Assembly (NCBI GenBank): GCA_027312165.1
Contig: DAICXN010000005.1
Span: 1-35,951, forward strand
DNA from: Candidatus Saccharimonadota bacterium
GTDB lineage: Bacteria > Patescibacteriota > Saccharimonadia > Saccharimonadales > Saccharimonadaceae
Reading direction: 5' to 3'
Length of the DNA: 35,951 nucleotides
Below, piece by piece: positions 25,312 through 30,693 of the stretch. The notes under the pieces are model-generated. The model did no database searches. It was not told where the DNA came from and saw nothing but the letters and a program-made list of their open reading frames with translations. Each line of letters starts with the position of its first letter. Within the stretch, counting starts at the first letter, position 1. A program made the translations under genes and the position numbers.

Positions 25312-25365
25312 TTGCAAACCACACATGTAGCGTCTATAGTCGAATTCAGACACTACATATACGGT
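25312..25365 (+). promoter_or_regulatory. nrdA promoter with paired NrdR-like boxes
   Basis: TTGCAA (25312-25317), 17 bases, TATAGT (25335-25340) forms the promoter. Box 1, ACCACACATGTAGCGT (25318-25333), fills the spacer; box 2, ACACTACATATACGGT (25350-25365), begins near the predicted start of transcription. The boxes are 32 bases apart, three helical turns. Box 2 matches 13 of 16 positions of the NrdR consensus as I recall it (acaCwATATaTwGtgt); box 1 is weaker but almost repeated upstream of pyrG. NrdR is the ATP/dATP-sensing repressor of RNR genes; its gene is not in the window. Confidence 0.6.
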
Positions 25366-25463: not shown

Positions 25464-27872
25464 ATGCAACAAATTAATGTCGTCAAGCGCGATGGCACCA
25501 AAGAGCCGTTTGACGCAAACAAGATCAATCTCGCCTTGGTCAAGGCAAGTGAAGGCCTACCGGATCAGATCGCAAAGGTGGTTCAAGTAGCAAGCGAGGT
25601 TCAGCTAACCTTGTTTGACGGAATCACCAGTGAGCAGTTGGACGAGGCGGTTATAAATACGGCCCTGCAAAATGTTAAGGATGATCCAGATTTTGATAAA
25701 ATTGCCGCGCGACTACTTCTTAAAACTATCTATAAAAATGTACTAGGCAACTACGAATCAGCGGAAGATCTAAAGAAGCTCCATCGGCAGCAGTTTCCGA
25801 AGTACCTCAAGAAGGCAACCGAGATGGGCCTGCTCGATCCACGGATGAGCGATGGTAAGCTGTTTGACCTTAAGCGACTAGCTGGGGCACTTAATCCCGA
25901 CAAGGATGACTTATCAAAGTATCTTGGCGTGATCACCAATAAGAATCGCTACGCGTTACGCAAAGGTTCGGGTGAGCCTATTGAGGTTCCGCAGTTTACT
26001 CACATGCGTATAGCGATGGGCCTAAGTTACAATGCAAAAAATCCAACTGAATCAGCGCTAGATTTTTACGAACACATGTCAAATCTTGACTATGTACCGG
26101 GCGGCTCGACTCGTGTCAATGCTGGCGGTGCGCATCCGCAACTATCCAACTGCTTCTTGATTAATGTTGATGATGACATGGAGTCAATCATGAAGGCCGT
26201 GCGCGACACGGGCTTTATTGCCAAAGGCACTGGCGGCATTGGTATGGGCTTTACGAAATTGCGCGCTGCAGGTAGCCCAGTCAAGACGACTAACACCGAA
26301 AGCACCGGGCCAATTCCGTTTATGAAAATGATCGACACGGCCCTATTTGCAGTTTCGCGAAAGGGCAAAAAAGCCGGTGCCGCAGCACTCTACATGGAGA
26401 ATTGGCATCTAAATTTCCCGCAGTTTCTAGATTTAAAGCAAAACTCTGGCGACCCTTATCTCCGGACGCGTTTTGCCAACACCGCCGTCTTTATCTCTGA
26501 TGAGTTCATGAAGCGCGTCGAGCAGGATCAAGATTGGTACTTGTTTGACCCAGCAGAAGTTATGGATTTGACGGAACTCTACGGAGCGGAATTTTCAAAG
26601 CGCTACAAAGAGTACGTCAAAATGGCTGAAGCGGGCAAGCTGCGTAAATTTGATAAAGTGTCAGCGCGTCAGCAATTTCGTGCCATTTTAATTCAGCTAC
26701 AGGCAACGAGCCATCCATGGCTAACCTGGAAGGACACGATTAATGTTCGGGCGCTCAATAACAACACCGGTACAATCCACCTAAGCAACCTGTGTACGGA
26801 GATTACGCTACCCCAGGACAACAACAACATAGCCGTATGTAATCTTGTCAGTATCAACTTGGCGGCTCATTTGAATGAGGATAAGTCTTGGGACTGGGAC
26901 CGCCTAGCGGCTAGTTCGCGAAGCGCAATTCGTCAGCTCGATAATTTAGTTGATATCACGAACTTGCCAGTTCCCGAGGCTCTACACGCCAACAGCCAGA
27001 CAAGAGCGCTTGGCCTCGGTGTCATGGGCTTTACGGATGTTTTGGAGAAGCTGCACCTTAGCTATGACTCAAAGGGCGCTTTTGAGCTAATTGACCAGTT
27101 GACTGAGTACATTAGTTATCACGCCATTGATGAGTCGGCCGAGCTTGCTAAAACCCTCGGTAGCTATCCGGCCTTTGCGGGAAGTGGCTGGAGCAAAGGT
27201 ATTTTGCCGATCGATACAATCGATACGCTAGCTGACGATCGCAAGGTCAAGGTAAAGGTTGACCAGACTGCTCGTCTAGACTGGGAGAAACTCCGCGCCA
27301 AAGTAAAGAAGGGCATGCGTAATGCAACACTTATGGCAATTGCGCCAACTGCCAATATTGGTCATATTGCCGGCACCACACCTGGCATTGATCCGCAGTT
27401 CGCTCAGATATTTAGCCGTTCAACGCTTAATGGCAAGTTCCTCGAGGTAAATGCTAACTTGGTGCGCGACCTCAAGGAGCTAAATCTGTGGGAGTCGCTC
27501 AAGGATGAGGTATTTGCCAACCAGGGCGATATCCAGAATATCAATGAGATTCCCCAAGAGCTAAAAGATGTCTACAAGACTAGCTTCCAGCTCAGTCCAT
27601 ATTCATTTATTGAAGTAGCAGCCAGAGCGCAGAAGTGGGTCGACCAAGCGATAAGCCGTAACATGTATCTCCAAACACGAGACATCGATGAGTATGTTGA
27701 GATCTACTCAGAGGCGTGGCGACGCGGCCTAAAGACGACGTATTACTTGCATGTTAAGCCACGACACCAGTCGGAGCAAACTACTGTCTCGGTGGAGAAA
27801 ACCGCACAAACTAAAATTAAGCAGCAGGGTGGAGCCGCACGTGGCTTTGGCTTTGCCAGGAGGAAGTCATAA
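25464..27872 (+). CDS. nrdA: Class I ribonucleotide reductase large subunit NrdA, lacking the C-terminal Cys pair
   Basis: Reduces ribonucleoside diphosphates to deoxy forms with NrdB. Residues 1-95 form an ATP-cone (VVKRDGTKEPFDANKI), the dATP activity switch. The catalytic set is complete: C230 and C459 (reducible pair), N442/C444/E446 in SNLCTEI (thiyl radical site), and Y760-Y761 in the radical path. At 802 residues it ends 41 residues after the Tyr pair in GFGFARRKS. It has only these three cysteines; the C-terminal CxxC or CxxxxC shuttle, needed to reduce the active-site disulfide, is absent. See the 57-residue gene at 29709. The stop overlaps the next start by 1 base. Confidence 0.95.
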   Translation: MQQINVVKRDGTKEPFDANKINLALVKASEGLPDQIAKVVQVASEVQLTLFDGITSEQLDEAVINTALQNVKDDPDFDKIAARLLLKTIYKNVLGNYESAEDLKKLHRQQFPKYLKKATEMGLLDPRMSDGKLFDLKRLAGALNPDKDDLSKYLGVITNKNRYALRKGSGEPIEVPQFTHMRIAMGLSYNAKNPTESALDFYEHMSNLDYVPGGSTRVNAGGAHPQLSNCFLINVDDDMESIMKAVRDTGFIAKGTGGIGMGFTKLRAAGSPVKTTNTESTGPIPFMKMIDTALFAVSRKGKKAGAAALYMENWHLNFPQFLDLKQNSGDPYLRTRFANTAVFISDEFMKRVEQDQDWYLFDPAEVMDLTELYGAEFSKRYKEYVKMAEAGKLRKFDKVSARQQFRAILIQLQATSHPWLTWKDTINVRALNNNTGTIHLSNLCTEITLPQDNNNIAVCNLVSINLAAHLNEDKSWDWDRLAASSRSAIRQLDNLVDITNLPVPEALHANSQTRALGLGVMGFTDVLEKLHLSYDSKGAFELIDQLTEYISYHAIDESAELAKTLGSYPAFAGSGWSKGILPIDTIDTLADDRKVKVKVDQTARLDWEKLRAKVKKGMRNATLMAIAPTANIGHIAGTTPGIDPQFAQIFSRSTLNGKFLEVNANLVRDLKELNLWESLKDEVFANQGDIQNINEIPQELKDVYKTSFQLSPYSFIEVAARAQKWVDQAISRNMYLQTRDIDEYVEIYSEAWRRGLKTTYYLHVKPRHQSEQTTVSVEKTAQTKIKQQGGAARGFGFARRKS

Positions 27873-28096
27873 TGGAAGATTTGCGTATTGGTCAGGTGAT
27901 TAATACCGAAAAGGGGCTTGAGAGAATAGTCAGGATGGAGTGGGGCAACCCGGTGACTGAGGCAGTTAGAGAGGTCGAGGAGACCGCGTCTAGCCTACAT
28001 GCAGCCAAGGTGGAGTCGGCAGAAACTCAACGAGATATCCGTCAGGATTTTGCTCGCCTTGGATCACCAGCAGTTAGTCAATTGATAAAGATTTAA
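27872..28096 (+). CDS. Small unknown protein in the nrd operon (74 aa)
   Basis: A 74-residue soluble protein starting at the last base of the nrdA stop (TAATG), so almost certainly cotranslated with nrdA. It begins with a beta-like part (LRIGQVINTEKGLERIVRM) and continues as a charged helix that could form a coiled coil (VREVEETASSLHAAKVESAETQRDIRQDF). It has no cysteine, so it is not the missing NrdA tail. I know no family. Likely roles are an RNR partner or regulator, by position only. Confidence 0.6.
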   Translation: MEDLRIGQVINTEKGLERIVRMEWGNPVTEAVREVEETASSLHAAKVESAETQRDIRQDFARLGSPAVSQLIKI

Positions 28097-28116
28097 TTAA
28101 GCAAGGAGAAATTACA

Positions 28117-28239
28117 ATGGAAACACTACCAGGACTAGGCGGCACAGTAGCAACGGATTGGGATATCTTGACTCAGTATGTTCAAGATGAGTTGCCAATC
28201 CCTGGACAACTTGAAGAGCTACCAATAGAGGAGGTATAG
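28117..28239 (+). CDS. Micro-ORF before nrdB (40 aa)
   Basis: A 40-codon frame with AAGGAG 9 bases before its ATG, placed between the 74-residue gene and nrdB and ending 1 base before the nrdB start. The product is acidic (METLPGLGG at the start, ELPIPGQLEELPIEEV at the end), has no cysteine and repeats an E-L-P-I motif. The nrdB ribosome site GAGGAGG lies inside its last codons, so reading it may control nrdB translation. It could be a real microprotein, a coupling leader, or both. No homolog is known to me. Confidence 0.5.
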   Translation: METLPGLGGTVATDWDILTQYVQDELPIPGQLEELPIEEV

Positions 28240-28240
28240 C

Positions 28241-29239
28241 ATGGCCTATCAGCATCCAAAAGATGGCATCCTAGGTTCAGGCTTGCGCGATGGCCTGAGT
28301 CTCTACCCAATTCGTTACCAGTGGGCTTATGACCTATACAATCAGGCGGTTGCTAACACCTGGTTCCCAAATGAGGTTCAGCTTGTCCAGGATCTTCAAG
28401 ACTTTGAAAAGCTGACCGATGATGAAAAGCACGCGCTTAAAACCGTTATTAGCTACCTCAACCCAAATGAACTACTGATCAATAAGTCACTAGCTTTTGG
28501 CATCTATCCGTATGTTAACGCTGCTGAAGCACAGCTCTACCTATCAAAGCAGATGTGGGAAGAGGCTAATCACTTCATGACCTTCGAGTATATTATTGAG
28601 ACATTTCCGTTTGACCGCGAGGAGATTTATGCAGCGGGCTTTGGCAAGAAGTCGCTAGCCGATAAGGCCGACTTTCAAAATAAGCACCTCGAAGTTATGC
28701 TCTCGAAAGACCTTGATATCTACACCCTTGAAGGTAAAAAGGACTTCGTTCGCTCGCTGGTGGCTTACAACATCGTACTTGAAGGTATTTGGTTTTACTC
28801 GGGCTTTATGGTTGGCATGAGTTTCCGCCAACGCAACTTGCTGCGTAACGTCGGTAGCTTACTCGATTGGATTACCAAGGACGAAAATCTTCACCTGACA
28901 TTTGGTATCAACTTGCTGCTGACAATTCTGGATGAGAACCCAGAGCTGCAAACTGAGGAGTTTGCCGATGAGATCCGAGCGCTTATCTTGCAGGCGGTGG
29001 AGATTGAAAAGGCTTACAACAAGGATATGTTGCCAAAGGGTATCTTGGGCCTAAATGCTGATTACGTAAATCAGTATGTCATGCACATGACCGATCGTCG
29101 TCTGATCGAGCTTGGTTTTGAGCCAGAGTATAATGTTGCCAACCCGGCGAAGTGGATGGCGACAGCCAATGATACGCTGGAGTTAGTTAATTTCTTTGAG
29201 AGCACCAACACTAGCTACGAAGTCAATACTACGAAATAG
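28241..29239 (+). CDS. nrdB: Class Ic ribonucleotide reductase small subunit NrdB (Mn/Fe type)
   Basis: Ferritin-like radical generator for NrdA, 332 residues. The metal ligands are E77, E108, H111, E181, E215 and H218. Spacings (31, 3, 73, 34, 3) equal those of Chlamydia trachomatis R2c (E89, E120, H123, E193, E227, H230). The radical tyrosine position is F115, as in R2c, and the first ligand is Glu instead of Asp. Both features define class Ic, which uses a Mn(IV)/Fe(III) centre rather than a Tyr radical. The C-terminal tail with Y326 should dock into NrdA and relay the radical. Confidence 0.95.
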   Translation: MAYQHPKDGILGSGLRDGLSLYPIRYQWAYDLYNQAVANTWFPNEVQLVQDLQDFEKLTDDEKHALKTVISYLNPNELLINKSLAFGIYPYVNAAEAQLYLSKQMWEEANHFMTFEYIIETFPFDREEIYAAGFGKKSLADKADFQNKHLEVMLSKDLDIYTLEGKKDFVRSLVAYNIVLEGIWFYSGFMVGMSFRQRNLLRNVGSLLDWITKDENLHLTFGINLLLTILDENPELQTEEFADEIRALILQAVEIEKAYNKDMLPKGILGLNADYVNQYVMHMTDRRLIELGFEPEYNVANPAKWMATANDTLELVNFFESTNTSYEVNTTK

Positions 29240-29248
29240 GAGCTTGCT

Positions 29249-29644
29249 ATGAATGAAGAGGTAAAATCAATTCTTGATACGGTCCATGTCGGGGTGATGG
29301 CCACGGTAAATCGTGACCGCACGCCGGCAGTGGCACCGCTCCACTTTGCTCGGCTGGACGATTCGATTATCTGGATATCGTCCCGAACGTCGAGGCACGC
29401 ACAAAACGCGATGCGCACTGGCCGACTTGAGTTCGTTGTTTGGAATGACAAAAAGCAAGCCGTTTACCTAAACACATCGGCGCTGGTTGTTTCAAAAGAT
29501 AAGGAGCCCGAGGCACTTCAGGCCTATGCAGAAAAGTTTGGAGAATTTCGTCCAAAATCGGATGATGTTGAGATCTATATTTCACCGATTGGTAAGGTCG
29601 ATGAAAATTCTACAACACAAAATATGTGGCATTTCGTTGCCTAG
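29249..29644 (+). CDS. Pyridoxamine 5'-phosphate oxidase-like flavin/heme-binding protein
   Basis: A 131-residue split-barrel protein of the PNPOx-like superfamily (VGVMATVNRDRTPAVAPLHFA, then WISSRTSRHAQNAMRTGRLE). Members bind FMN, F420 or heme and reduce various substrates; most such stand-alone proteins have no proven role. AGGAG lies 7 bases before the ATG, 9 bases after nrdB, so it is probably in the nrd operon. An upstream NrdR-like box of the next gene overlaps its last codons. A reductant role towards RNR or its cofactor is possible by position only. Confidence 0.78.
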   Translation: MNEEVKSILDTVHVGVMATVNRDRTPAVAPLHFARLDDSIIWISSRTSRHAQNAMRTGRLEFVVWNDKKQAVYLNTSALVVSKDKEPEALQAYAEKFGEFRPKSDDVEIYISPIGKVDENSTTQNMWHFVA

Positions 29645-29666
29645 GACGCTATATATAGCGTATTAT
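29615..29666 (+). promoter_or_regulatory. Promoter with paired NrdR-like boxes before the CxxC microprotein
   Basis: TTGCCT (29637-29642), 18 bases, TATTAT (29661-29666). ACGCTATATATAGCGT (29646-29661) is a perfect 16-base palindrome lying in the spacer and matches 14 of 16 NrdR consensus positions as I recall it. A second, weaker box ACACAAAATATGTGGC (29615-29630) lies 31 bases upstream, inside the end of the preceding gene. The layout parallels the nrdA promoter. Confidence 0.65.
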
Positions 29667-29708
29667 TATACATAAGCACTATTTAACAAACAAGAAAAGG
29701 GAGTGGGT

Positions 29709-29882
29709 ATGAACGCTAGCCAAATCATCACAGAAGACATGACTTTAGAAGAAAAACTGAGTGCGATTGACGCTGCGATGAAGGCTGCCCAGGAGGCTGC
29801 TCAGGAACAAGCAAAAAAGAACGGTACGATCGCCGCGCCACTCGACCCAGCAGCGCTGACGATGTGTGAAGGCTGCCAGTAG
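29709..29882 (+). CDS. 57-aa microprotein ending CEGCQ: candidate detached NrdA redox tail
   Basis: A small gene with AAGGGAG 6 bases before its ATG. The product has an acidic start, a helix (EEKLSAIDAAMKAAQEAAQE), a flexible Ala/Pro linker, and the end MCEGCQ, with C53 and C56 its only cysteines. The Cys-x-x-Cys-Gln end is like that at the C-terminus of many NrdA proteins, where it passes electrons from thioredoxin or glutaredoxin to the active site. NrdA here lacks that pair. The NrdR-like palindrome in its promoter links it to RNR control. In trans tail function is my inference; a free redox peptide is the alternative. Confidence 0.7.
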   Translation: MNASQIITEDMTLEEKLSAIDAAMKAAQEAAQEQAKKNGTIAAPLDPAALTMCEGCQ

Positions 29883-30594: not shown

Positions 30595-30667
30595 ACGCTA
30601 CATCTAGTGTAGTGTAATTACTACAACACCACAGATCTAGCGTATTTTATCCGTAAGGTGCTATACT
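30595..30667 (+). promoter_or_regulatory. pyrG promoter region with paired NrdR-like boxes
   Basis: ACGCTACATCTAGTGT (30595-30610) and ACCACAGATCTAGCGT (30628-30643) are 33 bases apart. The second differs from the nrdA box ACCACACATGTAGCGT at only two positions, and the first resembles nrdA box 2 and the microprotein palindrome. TATACT at 30662-30667 is the likely -10 box of pyrG; no good -35 is seen. The boxes would place CTP synthase with RNR in one regulon. Confidence 0.5.
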
Positions 30668-30693
30668 AAAATTCCATGGAGGGGAAGACAAAC

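Follow-up and report, generated by a model that had tools for sequence, protein, structure and literature searches.

Organization of the locus

The DNA analysed here, referred to as the window, is a stretch of 35,951 nucleotides from a Saccharibacterium, a tiny parasitic bacterium. It carries the genes for both subunits of a class I ribonucleotide reductase (RNR), accompanied by several smaller open reading frames (ORFs). The genes are arranged as follows:

25464-27872, plus strand: nrdA, large subunit of 802 aa with an ATP cone, ending ...RGFGFARRKS, no C-terminal Cys pair
27872-28096, plus strand: small ORF of 74 aa that overlaps the stop codon of nrdA; without Cys and without a match to any family
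28117-28239, plus strand: small ORF of 40 aa (METLPGLGG...) directly before nrdB; no Cys
28241-29239, plus strand: nrdB, class Ic-type small subunit of 332 aa; ATG start, PF00268
29249-29644, plus strand: PNPOx-like ORF, downstream of nrdB and upstream of the tail gene
29709-29882, plus strand: candidate detached NrdA redox tail of 57 codons, MNASQIITEDMTLEEKLSAIDAAMKAAQEAAQEQAKKNGTIAAPLDPAALTMCEGCQ, found by a pattern search of the organism's own genome

The first-pass annotation had assigned this DNA to a probable CPR bacterium, and the relatives of NrdB bear this out. Among the best 80 of 510 relatives, the closest named proteins, with up to 95% identity, belong to Candidatus Saccharibacteria, including TM7 oral taxon 352 and TM7i. 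At about 70% identity in the same set, other Saccharibacteria and Actinomycetes (Microbacteriaceae, Demequina, Cellulomonas) appear alike; the Actinomycetes are the phylum to which the hosts of Saccharibacteria belong. The organism's own assembly contains a single NrdA match and a single NrdB match. Other families of the order were sampled with 16 genomes: 1 has a close NrdA and 15 have only distant matches. Nearly all of the distant matches lie in long ORFs whose Cys-rich end resembles that of class II enzymes, to which they would presumably belong. In one single-contig genome (G001, locus L015), NrdA and NrdB are split over several frames, reflecting either sequencing error or decay.

The class Ic-type small subunit

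The NrdB previously claimed at 28241-29239 is present, with a match to Pfam PF00268 (Ribonuc_red_sm) at 4.3e-71. Alignment with solved proteins identifies E77, E108, H111, E181, E215 and H218 as ligands and places F115 at the position of the radical Tyr, as had been proposed for both E77 and F115. The same columns of the Chlamydia trachomatis protein (1syy) hold E89, E120, H123, E193, E227, H230 and F127, while W41, Y117 and Y326 align with Chlamydia W51, Y129 and Y338. Taking the six ligands and the relay residues together, 10 of 10 compared columns are identical to 1syy. The ligand spacing had been described as 31-3-73-34-3 and equal to that of Chlamydia; the equality holds, and the figure of 73 has to be corrected, both proteins having 31-3-70-34-3. 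E. coli NrdB and NrdF share the 31-3 and 34-3 spacings, so that E77 and F115 are the only features that set the class apart. According to the accessible excerpts of PMC8463856, class Ic is marked by a Phe/Glu pairing instead of Tyr/Asp, and metals are cited there only for the Chlamydia enzyme.

The E/F pattern occurs in 111 of 123 aligned R2 rows and the D/Y pattern in 12. These rows consist of the window and 122 loci, some genomes appearing twice and one E/F row ending before the last column; L015, with its genes in pieces, matches of fewer than 250 query residues, and the window copies L001 and L002 were left out. In the PDB, the top sequence matches are Chlamydia chains (1syy, 8.7e-68), with 6y2n, which also has the E/F pattern, at 6.2e-64; the next chain, 6zjk, is the first with D/Y (1.2e-36), and a profile search gives the same ranking. 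A fold search with the AlphaFold model (mean pLDDT 79.4) again places Chlamydia first (1syy, E 2.9e-19, TM 0.81/0.85), ahead of 6zjk (8.0e-13).

A phylogeny with the other classes, the check suggested by the first-pass annotation, gave a mixed answer. In a tree of 46 rows selected by hand, all E/F rows fall into one 44-row group (support 100/99) together with the Chlamydia protein; six D/Y rows from Patescibacteria also lie inside it, and in just 19% of bootstrap trees does a branch separate the E/F rows from all others. An initial NrdB tree left out L003-L008, L055 and L056, which are duplicates or partial. The Phe/Glu pair and the closest PDB entries by sequence, profile and fold support the earlier class Ic assignment, on the grounds of residues and nearest kin. 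The Chlamydia trachomatis protein (1syy, 4d8f, 4m1i) and the window NrdB have in common the Phe in place of the radical Tyr, the Glu as first ligand, the spacing and the counterparts of W51, Y129 and Y338, at 34-38% identity in fold alignments. A Mn(IV)/Fe(III) cofactor and tolerance of oxidants, both proposed earlier, are predicted properties of this NrdB. Unlike in the Chlamydia RNR, the NrdA partner appears to be split.

A large subunit without a redox tail

In class I RNRs, a C-terminal CxxC dithiol segment of the large subunit normally swings into the active site and re-reduces the catalytic disulfide. The window NrdA ends without such a segment. Past the YYL relay motif the chain terminates ...GGAARGFGFARRKS, with no Cys after the YY motif, and the gene has no stop codon within it. 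Its only Cys residues are C230, C444 and C459 (E. coli C225, C439 and C462), all of them catalytic. The catalytic machinery is complete throughout the family: the Cys trio together with N437, E441, Y730 and Y731 (E. coli numbers), seven residues in total, is kept in 84 of 84 NrdA rows.

A fused tail is present on the NrdA of Demequina, Cellulomonas, Serinicoccus and others (e.g., ...CPVDPMERLQCESCQ), whereas the Saccharibacteria and Microbacteriaceae examined have an NrdA without it. The class I NrdAs of the three named genera are 58-62% identical to that of the window; their tail ends CPxDPMExLQCxSCQ on the NrdA chain itself, and the locus has no separate tail ORF. Among the named loci (best 80 of 510 relatives), 57 full-length tail-less NrdAs contain 3 to 6 Cys residues and 14 fused ones 7 or 8. 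The GF[GSA] motif after YYL is kept in 63/63 tail-less and 16/16 fused NrdAs of the same set; the split removes what follows.

The two small ORFs between nrdA and nrdB in the window were considered as the missing tail and rejected because they have no Cys. The 74-aa ORF has no counterpart in the same gap of relatives, and ORFs similar to the 40-aa one occur in a few near relatives. Across Saccharibacteria this gap (window 27872-28240) holds very variable small ORFs, such as METLPGLGG..., ...QQALF... and ...GEQLSI..., some of which we take to resemble clamp-binding motifs.

A probable detached gene for the tail

In Microbacteriaceae and many Saccharibacteria, the nrdA-nrdB gap holds a small ORF ending DPxxxxxCxxC[QE]-stop, which the gap in the window does not have. 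The ORF at 29709-29882, which begins 470 bases after nrdB and beyond the PNPOx-like ORF, appears to encode the tail of NrdA as a separate mini-protein, with the end ...APLDPAALTMCEGCQ. The ATG is preceded, at a distance of 5 nt, by GGAG (29700-29703), and a GTG at 29703 is an alternative start. The second CxxC-stop match in the same genome (L142) is spurious, being antisense to a 598-aa ORF and without a start codon.

Among 34 aligned tail peptides, D46, P47, C53, G55 and C56 are invariant and I6, M11, L13, K16, L17, A19 and I20 nearly so, and conservation extends beyond the redox motif to an N-terminal part, MTLEEKLAAID. Purifying selection is evident from a pN/pS of 0.375 overall, with 0.33 in the first 24 codons, 0.57 in the linker and 0.20 in the last 14 codons; of the 76 coding sequences (75 loci and the window), this set covers the 30 whose length is exactly 57 codons, and in 30/30 of these both other reading frames contain stops. 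The AlphaFold model of the peptide, of low confidence (mean pLDDT 68.2), shows a helix at 13-38 and a loose end. Searches of Pfam and NCBIfam assigned the peptide to no family, the best Pfam match being Nnf1 (E 0.02, below the cut-off).

Co-occurrence of the tail gene and tail-less NrdA

Of the named loci (best 80 of 510 relatives), 79 show both the NrdA end and NrdB, L106 having no NrdA in the locus. The tail is fused in 16/79, and none of these 16 has an extra tail ORF. In the 63/79 with a tail-less NrdA, a tail ORF lies within the locus in 61, between nrdA and nrdB in 41 and after nrdB in 20; these 20 are all 20 of L062-L081, the clade of the window by NrdB. The two exceptions, L136 and L138, carry the tail gene elsewhere in the genome. 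The 22 ORFs of Microbacteriaceae type encode tails of 20-33 aa and those of Saccharibacteria tails of 51-79 aa, an entry of 34 aa for L066 being an artefact of start choice (a GTG start gives 57). The NrdBs of L062-L081 form a long branch apart from other Saccharibacteria, whereas the corresponding NrdAs nest among them; this discordance suggests a possible gene exchange alongside the move of the tail gene.

The association extends to whole genomes. Among 294 genomes of the order, a peptide profile (A1) detects the tail in 49/49 with a close NrdB and in 0/245 others. An NrdB search of the 294 gave 50 matches, namely the same 49 at at least 67% identity and G468 at 31%; the peptide profile has no tail match in G468. 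Among 150 Microbacteriaceae, the tail motif occurs in 70/70 genomes with this NrdA type and in 1/80 without it, by counts made by eye in which free and fused motif hits were treated alike. The sole genome with the motif and without any NrdA match is G688, and a reversed control pattern was found in 1/150 genomes.

In Microbacteriaceae, the DPxxxxxCxxC[QE] end also closes other proteins (L204:1342-1620, L206:1320-1598, L214, L211, L212, L216). They comprise a 196-aa ORF, a set of related ORFs close to 93 aa long and some that resemble cytidine deaminase by eye. Five or six copies of the motif, several in small ORFs with ribosome-binding-like sites, are present in G616, G701 and G627.

NrdR-like boxes

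The following candidate operator sites, given without strand, were found upstream of nrdA and of the tail gene:

25318-25333: NrdR-like box 1 upstream of nrdA, 12/15
25350-25365: NrdR-like box 2 upstream of nrdA, 13/15; begins 32 bp after the start of box 1
29615-29630: weaker NrdR-like partner of the next box, matching at 10/15 scored positions; lies within the last part of the PNPOx-like ORF, its start 31 bp from that of the next box
29646-29661: NrdR-like box, perfect palindrome ACGCTATATATAGCGT lying 48-63 nt ahead of the ATG of the tail gene, with no second exact copy in the window

When up to 3 mismatches are allowed, the window contains 2 matches to ACGCTATATATAGCGT, where 0.08 would be expected. 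According to the accessible parts of PMC12051234, NrdR binds paired palindromes of 16 bp, separated in most bacteria by a spacer of 15-16 bp, with binding at 14-17 bp. The box pairs of the window, at 32 bp start to start for nrdA, 31 for the tail and 33 for pyrG, lie within the 14-17 bp spacer range, the first box of the tail being weak. Paired palindromes are thus common to the NrdR-regulated RNR operons described in those parts of PMC12051234 and to this locus, where they also precede a detached tail gene and pyrG.

Tandem boxes were scored at 30-33 bp apart with an NrdR consensus that was adjusted after the window box had been seen. A scoring pair precedes 16/21 relocated tails (the window and L062-L081), against 6/840 shuffles, and is missing from 5/21. 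For solitary Microbacteriaceae tails the pair is present in 17/19, against 1/760 shuffles, and missing from 2/19; these 19 were chosen by motif type, and coordinates place 17 of them away from nrdA, the other two being L146, on contig C18, and L215, from a genome without an nrdA match. The tail of G263 adds 1/1, against 0/40 shuffles. Detached tail genes overall have a box pair in 34/41, by the consensus tuned after the window box was seen. Tails inside the operon have none (0/19 in Saccharibacteria and 0/22 in Microbacteriaceae loci, together 0/41). Tail genes that have left the operon thus bear NrdR-like sites, as would be expected of a reductase subunit. The tail gene of the window has a putative NrdR-type operator of its own, and control by NrdR is what we infer from it.

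Among the 20 window ORFs scanned, none encodes an NrdR protein. The pyrG pair (30595-30610 and 30628-30643) lies upstream of an ORF at 30676, identified by eye as CTP synthase; its position suggests co-regulation of CTP and dNTP synthesis.

Separate tails in other bacteria and in phages

An NrdA tree was calculated by a quick method, with SH-aLRT support only, from 64 of 110 full-length rows. Saccharibacteria (29 rows) are separate from a group of Actinomycetes and phages (29 rows), within which the fused (12) and split (17) rows each cohere. The free tree needs two changes between the fused and split states, or three with two further split rows; a single split clade of Saccharibacteria and Microbacteriaceae is not rejected (p-AU 0.069). 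Two Patescibacteria, G162 and G263, have a tail-less NrdA and a separate tail ORF and group by NrdB with relatives whose tail is fused. In the NrdA tree, from which those fused relatives are absent, the two are sisters. The tail ORF of G162 lies directly after nrdB and ends GDPNLNVCESCQ, the fused counterpart in the relatives being GDPNLNICESCQ; that of G263 lies about 65 kb from nrdB.

Split reductases also occur on viral contigs. L159 and L160 encode an NrdB and a tail-less NrdA that is 60-61% identical to that of the window, with a tail ORF lying upstream at a distance of about 1 kb; L159 carries WhiB (PF02467, 1.1e-12), which suggests that the two are actinophages. An ORF of about 320 aa lies between their tail gene and nrdA (L159:2018-2983, L160:2035-2982). 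By eye it is intein-like (VWGVxPETLxLTxKGY..., without the usual first Cys), and in Pfam it matches only LAGLIDADG_3 (9.5e-5 in L159, 0.093 in L160). Among annotated phages (5000 records listed) and plasmids, no NrdA of at least 60% identity was found.

Two other viral contigs, L164 and L165, which apparently have the same gene set, encode a tail-less NrdA (38% identity) followed by a 97-aa glutaredoxin:

L164:5342-5635 and L165:5342-5635: viral glutaredoxin with an NrdA-like CxxC tail, ending ATCESCEG; PF00462, 4.1e-12

The gene order in L164, where nrdB was read, is tail-less nrdA, glutaredoxin, nrdB. In these contigs the tail is apparently attached to the very protein that reduces it.

Proposed mechanism and alternative explanations

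At the level of sequence, the absence of the tail from NrdA, its presence as a separate gene, the strict co-occurrence of the two, the purifying selection and the box pairs are established. They make it highly probable that the window encodes a class Ic-type reductase of a Saccharibacterium with a split large subunit and a trans-acting, separately regulated redox tail. NrdA would keep the catalytic barrel and the radical-relay tyrosines and stop at the GFGF motif, and the separate 57-residue protein would supply the dithiol segment in trans. The helical N-terminal part of the peptide may dock on the NrdA/NrdB complex, the linker allowing the CEGC end to reach the C230/C459 disulfide, after which a redoxin or thioredoxin reductase would reduce CEGC. 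In the clade of the window, the tail gene would have left the nrdA-nrdB interval and gained an NrdR-type operator of its own. Mn/Fe use, translation of the tail, docking, electron transfer and NrdR control are predicted elements of this model.

If the tail were joined to NrdA by programmed frameshifting or stop-codon readthrough, nothing would act in trans. The Microbacteriaceae tail ORF does often start only a few bases from the stop codon of nrdA, and four listed Microbacteriaceae NrdA matches run through one TGA. Such a fusion is nevertheless rejected because of the position of the tail, and is very improbable: the tail lies beyond nrdB in 20/20 named loci of the window clade (best 80 of 510) and far from nrdA or nrdB in G319 and G263, and its offset from the nrdA stop varies among genomes. 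Nearly all chosen tail starts, moreover, have a Shine-Dalgarno-like site, in a choice of starts that favoured such sites. The view that the locus contains an ordinary class Ic NrdB only, with assembly noise or degeneration behind the missing tail, has a practically negligible chance of being right. NrdB by itself is a typical member, but 63 of 79 named loci (best 80 of 510), from separate assemblies, combine a tail-less NrdA with an exactly complementary separate gene, the window NrdA is free of internal stops, and the co-occurrence counts for loci and whole genomes already disfavour this view.

The small protein could also be a regulator of the nrd regulon or a stress protein rather than a shuttle, with a redoxin reducing NrdA directly. 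Its own NrdR-like operator, the conserved MTLEEKLAAID outside the redox motif and the recurrence of the motif as the terminus of other proteins in Microbacteriaceae fit such a role. The chance of this appears slim, as the presence of the protein tracks the loss of the NrdA tail and not RNR itself (absent from the locus in 16/16 fused cases, present in the locus or genome in 63/63 tail-less ones, best 80 of 510), the CxxC end is the most constrained part of the peptide, and a glutaredoxin bears the tail in L164/L165. A separate question concerns the metals, since the E/F site of this subfamily may use a pair other than Mn/Fe. The E/F rows are not recovered as one clade (19% of bootstraps), and the metals cited in the excerpts of PMC8463856 are those of the Chlamydia enzyme; on the other side stands the agreement with Chlamydia in 10/10 compared columns, W41, Y117 and Y326 included. 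Other metals are unlikely.

The reading favoured here, a dithiol tail supplied in trans, bears on how class I enzymes are understood. To our knowledge, a C-terminal dithiol tethered to the large subunit is regarded as a requirement of class I reductases. Whole bacterial lineages of the present set appear to have a free tail, as short as 20 residues and sometimes far off in the genome, which would make the enzyme a testable example of a catalytic cycle that a microprotein completes and would offer a natural route to studying tail docking apart from catalysis. NrdA annotations without the tail would be incomplete, and a class Ic enzyme that Actinomycetes also have would be added to the physiology of Saccharibacteria.

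Relation to split class II reductases

The closest parallel is the split class II enzyme NrdJa/NrdJb of Pseudomonas aeruginosa, in which the redox part of the catalytic subunit is likewise on its own gene. Accessible excerpts of PMC4520616 and PMC5704485 describe NrdJb as mediating disulfide exchange and as a Cys-rich class II protein of 229 residues within a single operon. In contrast to NrdJab, the split tails described here belong to class I, have 20-79 residues and one CxxC, and are sometimes unlinked. The window does not combine a class II subunit with a Cys-rich domain protein; it has an NrdA with an ATP cone, an NrdB partner and a 57-aa peptide with two Cys. Split domains are perhaps distinct to class II, according to the excerpts of PMC9669993, and the open-licence literature searched, as far as its accessible text extends, contained nothing on a split class I tail and described split cellular reductases only for class II.

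Candidate electron donors

A broader and rather doubtful idea is that the tail serves as a diffusible mini-redoxin with its own control point. It could then be swapped between host, phage and replicon enzymes, might replace thioredoxin or be joined to a glutaredoxin (the arrangement of L164/L165), and its NrdR-controlled dose would set activity; detachment would have arisen several times independently because of this control. With regard to the reductant, no PF00085 thioredoxin was found in the organism's own assembly (G000, 89.5% complete), 13/14 control genomes being positive. The same assembly encodes a thioredoxin-reductase-like protein, which scores 299 bits, under the TIGR01292 cut-off.
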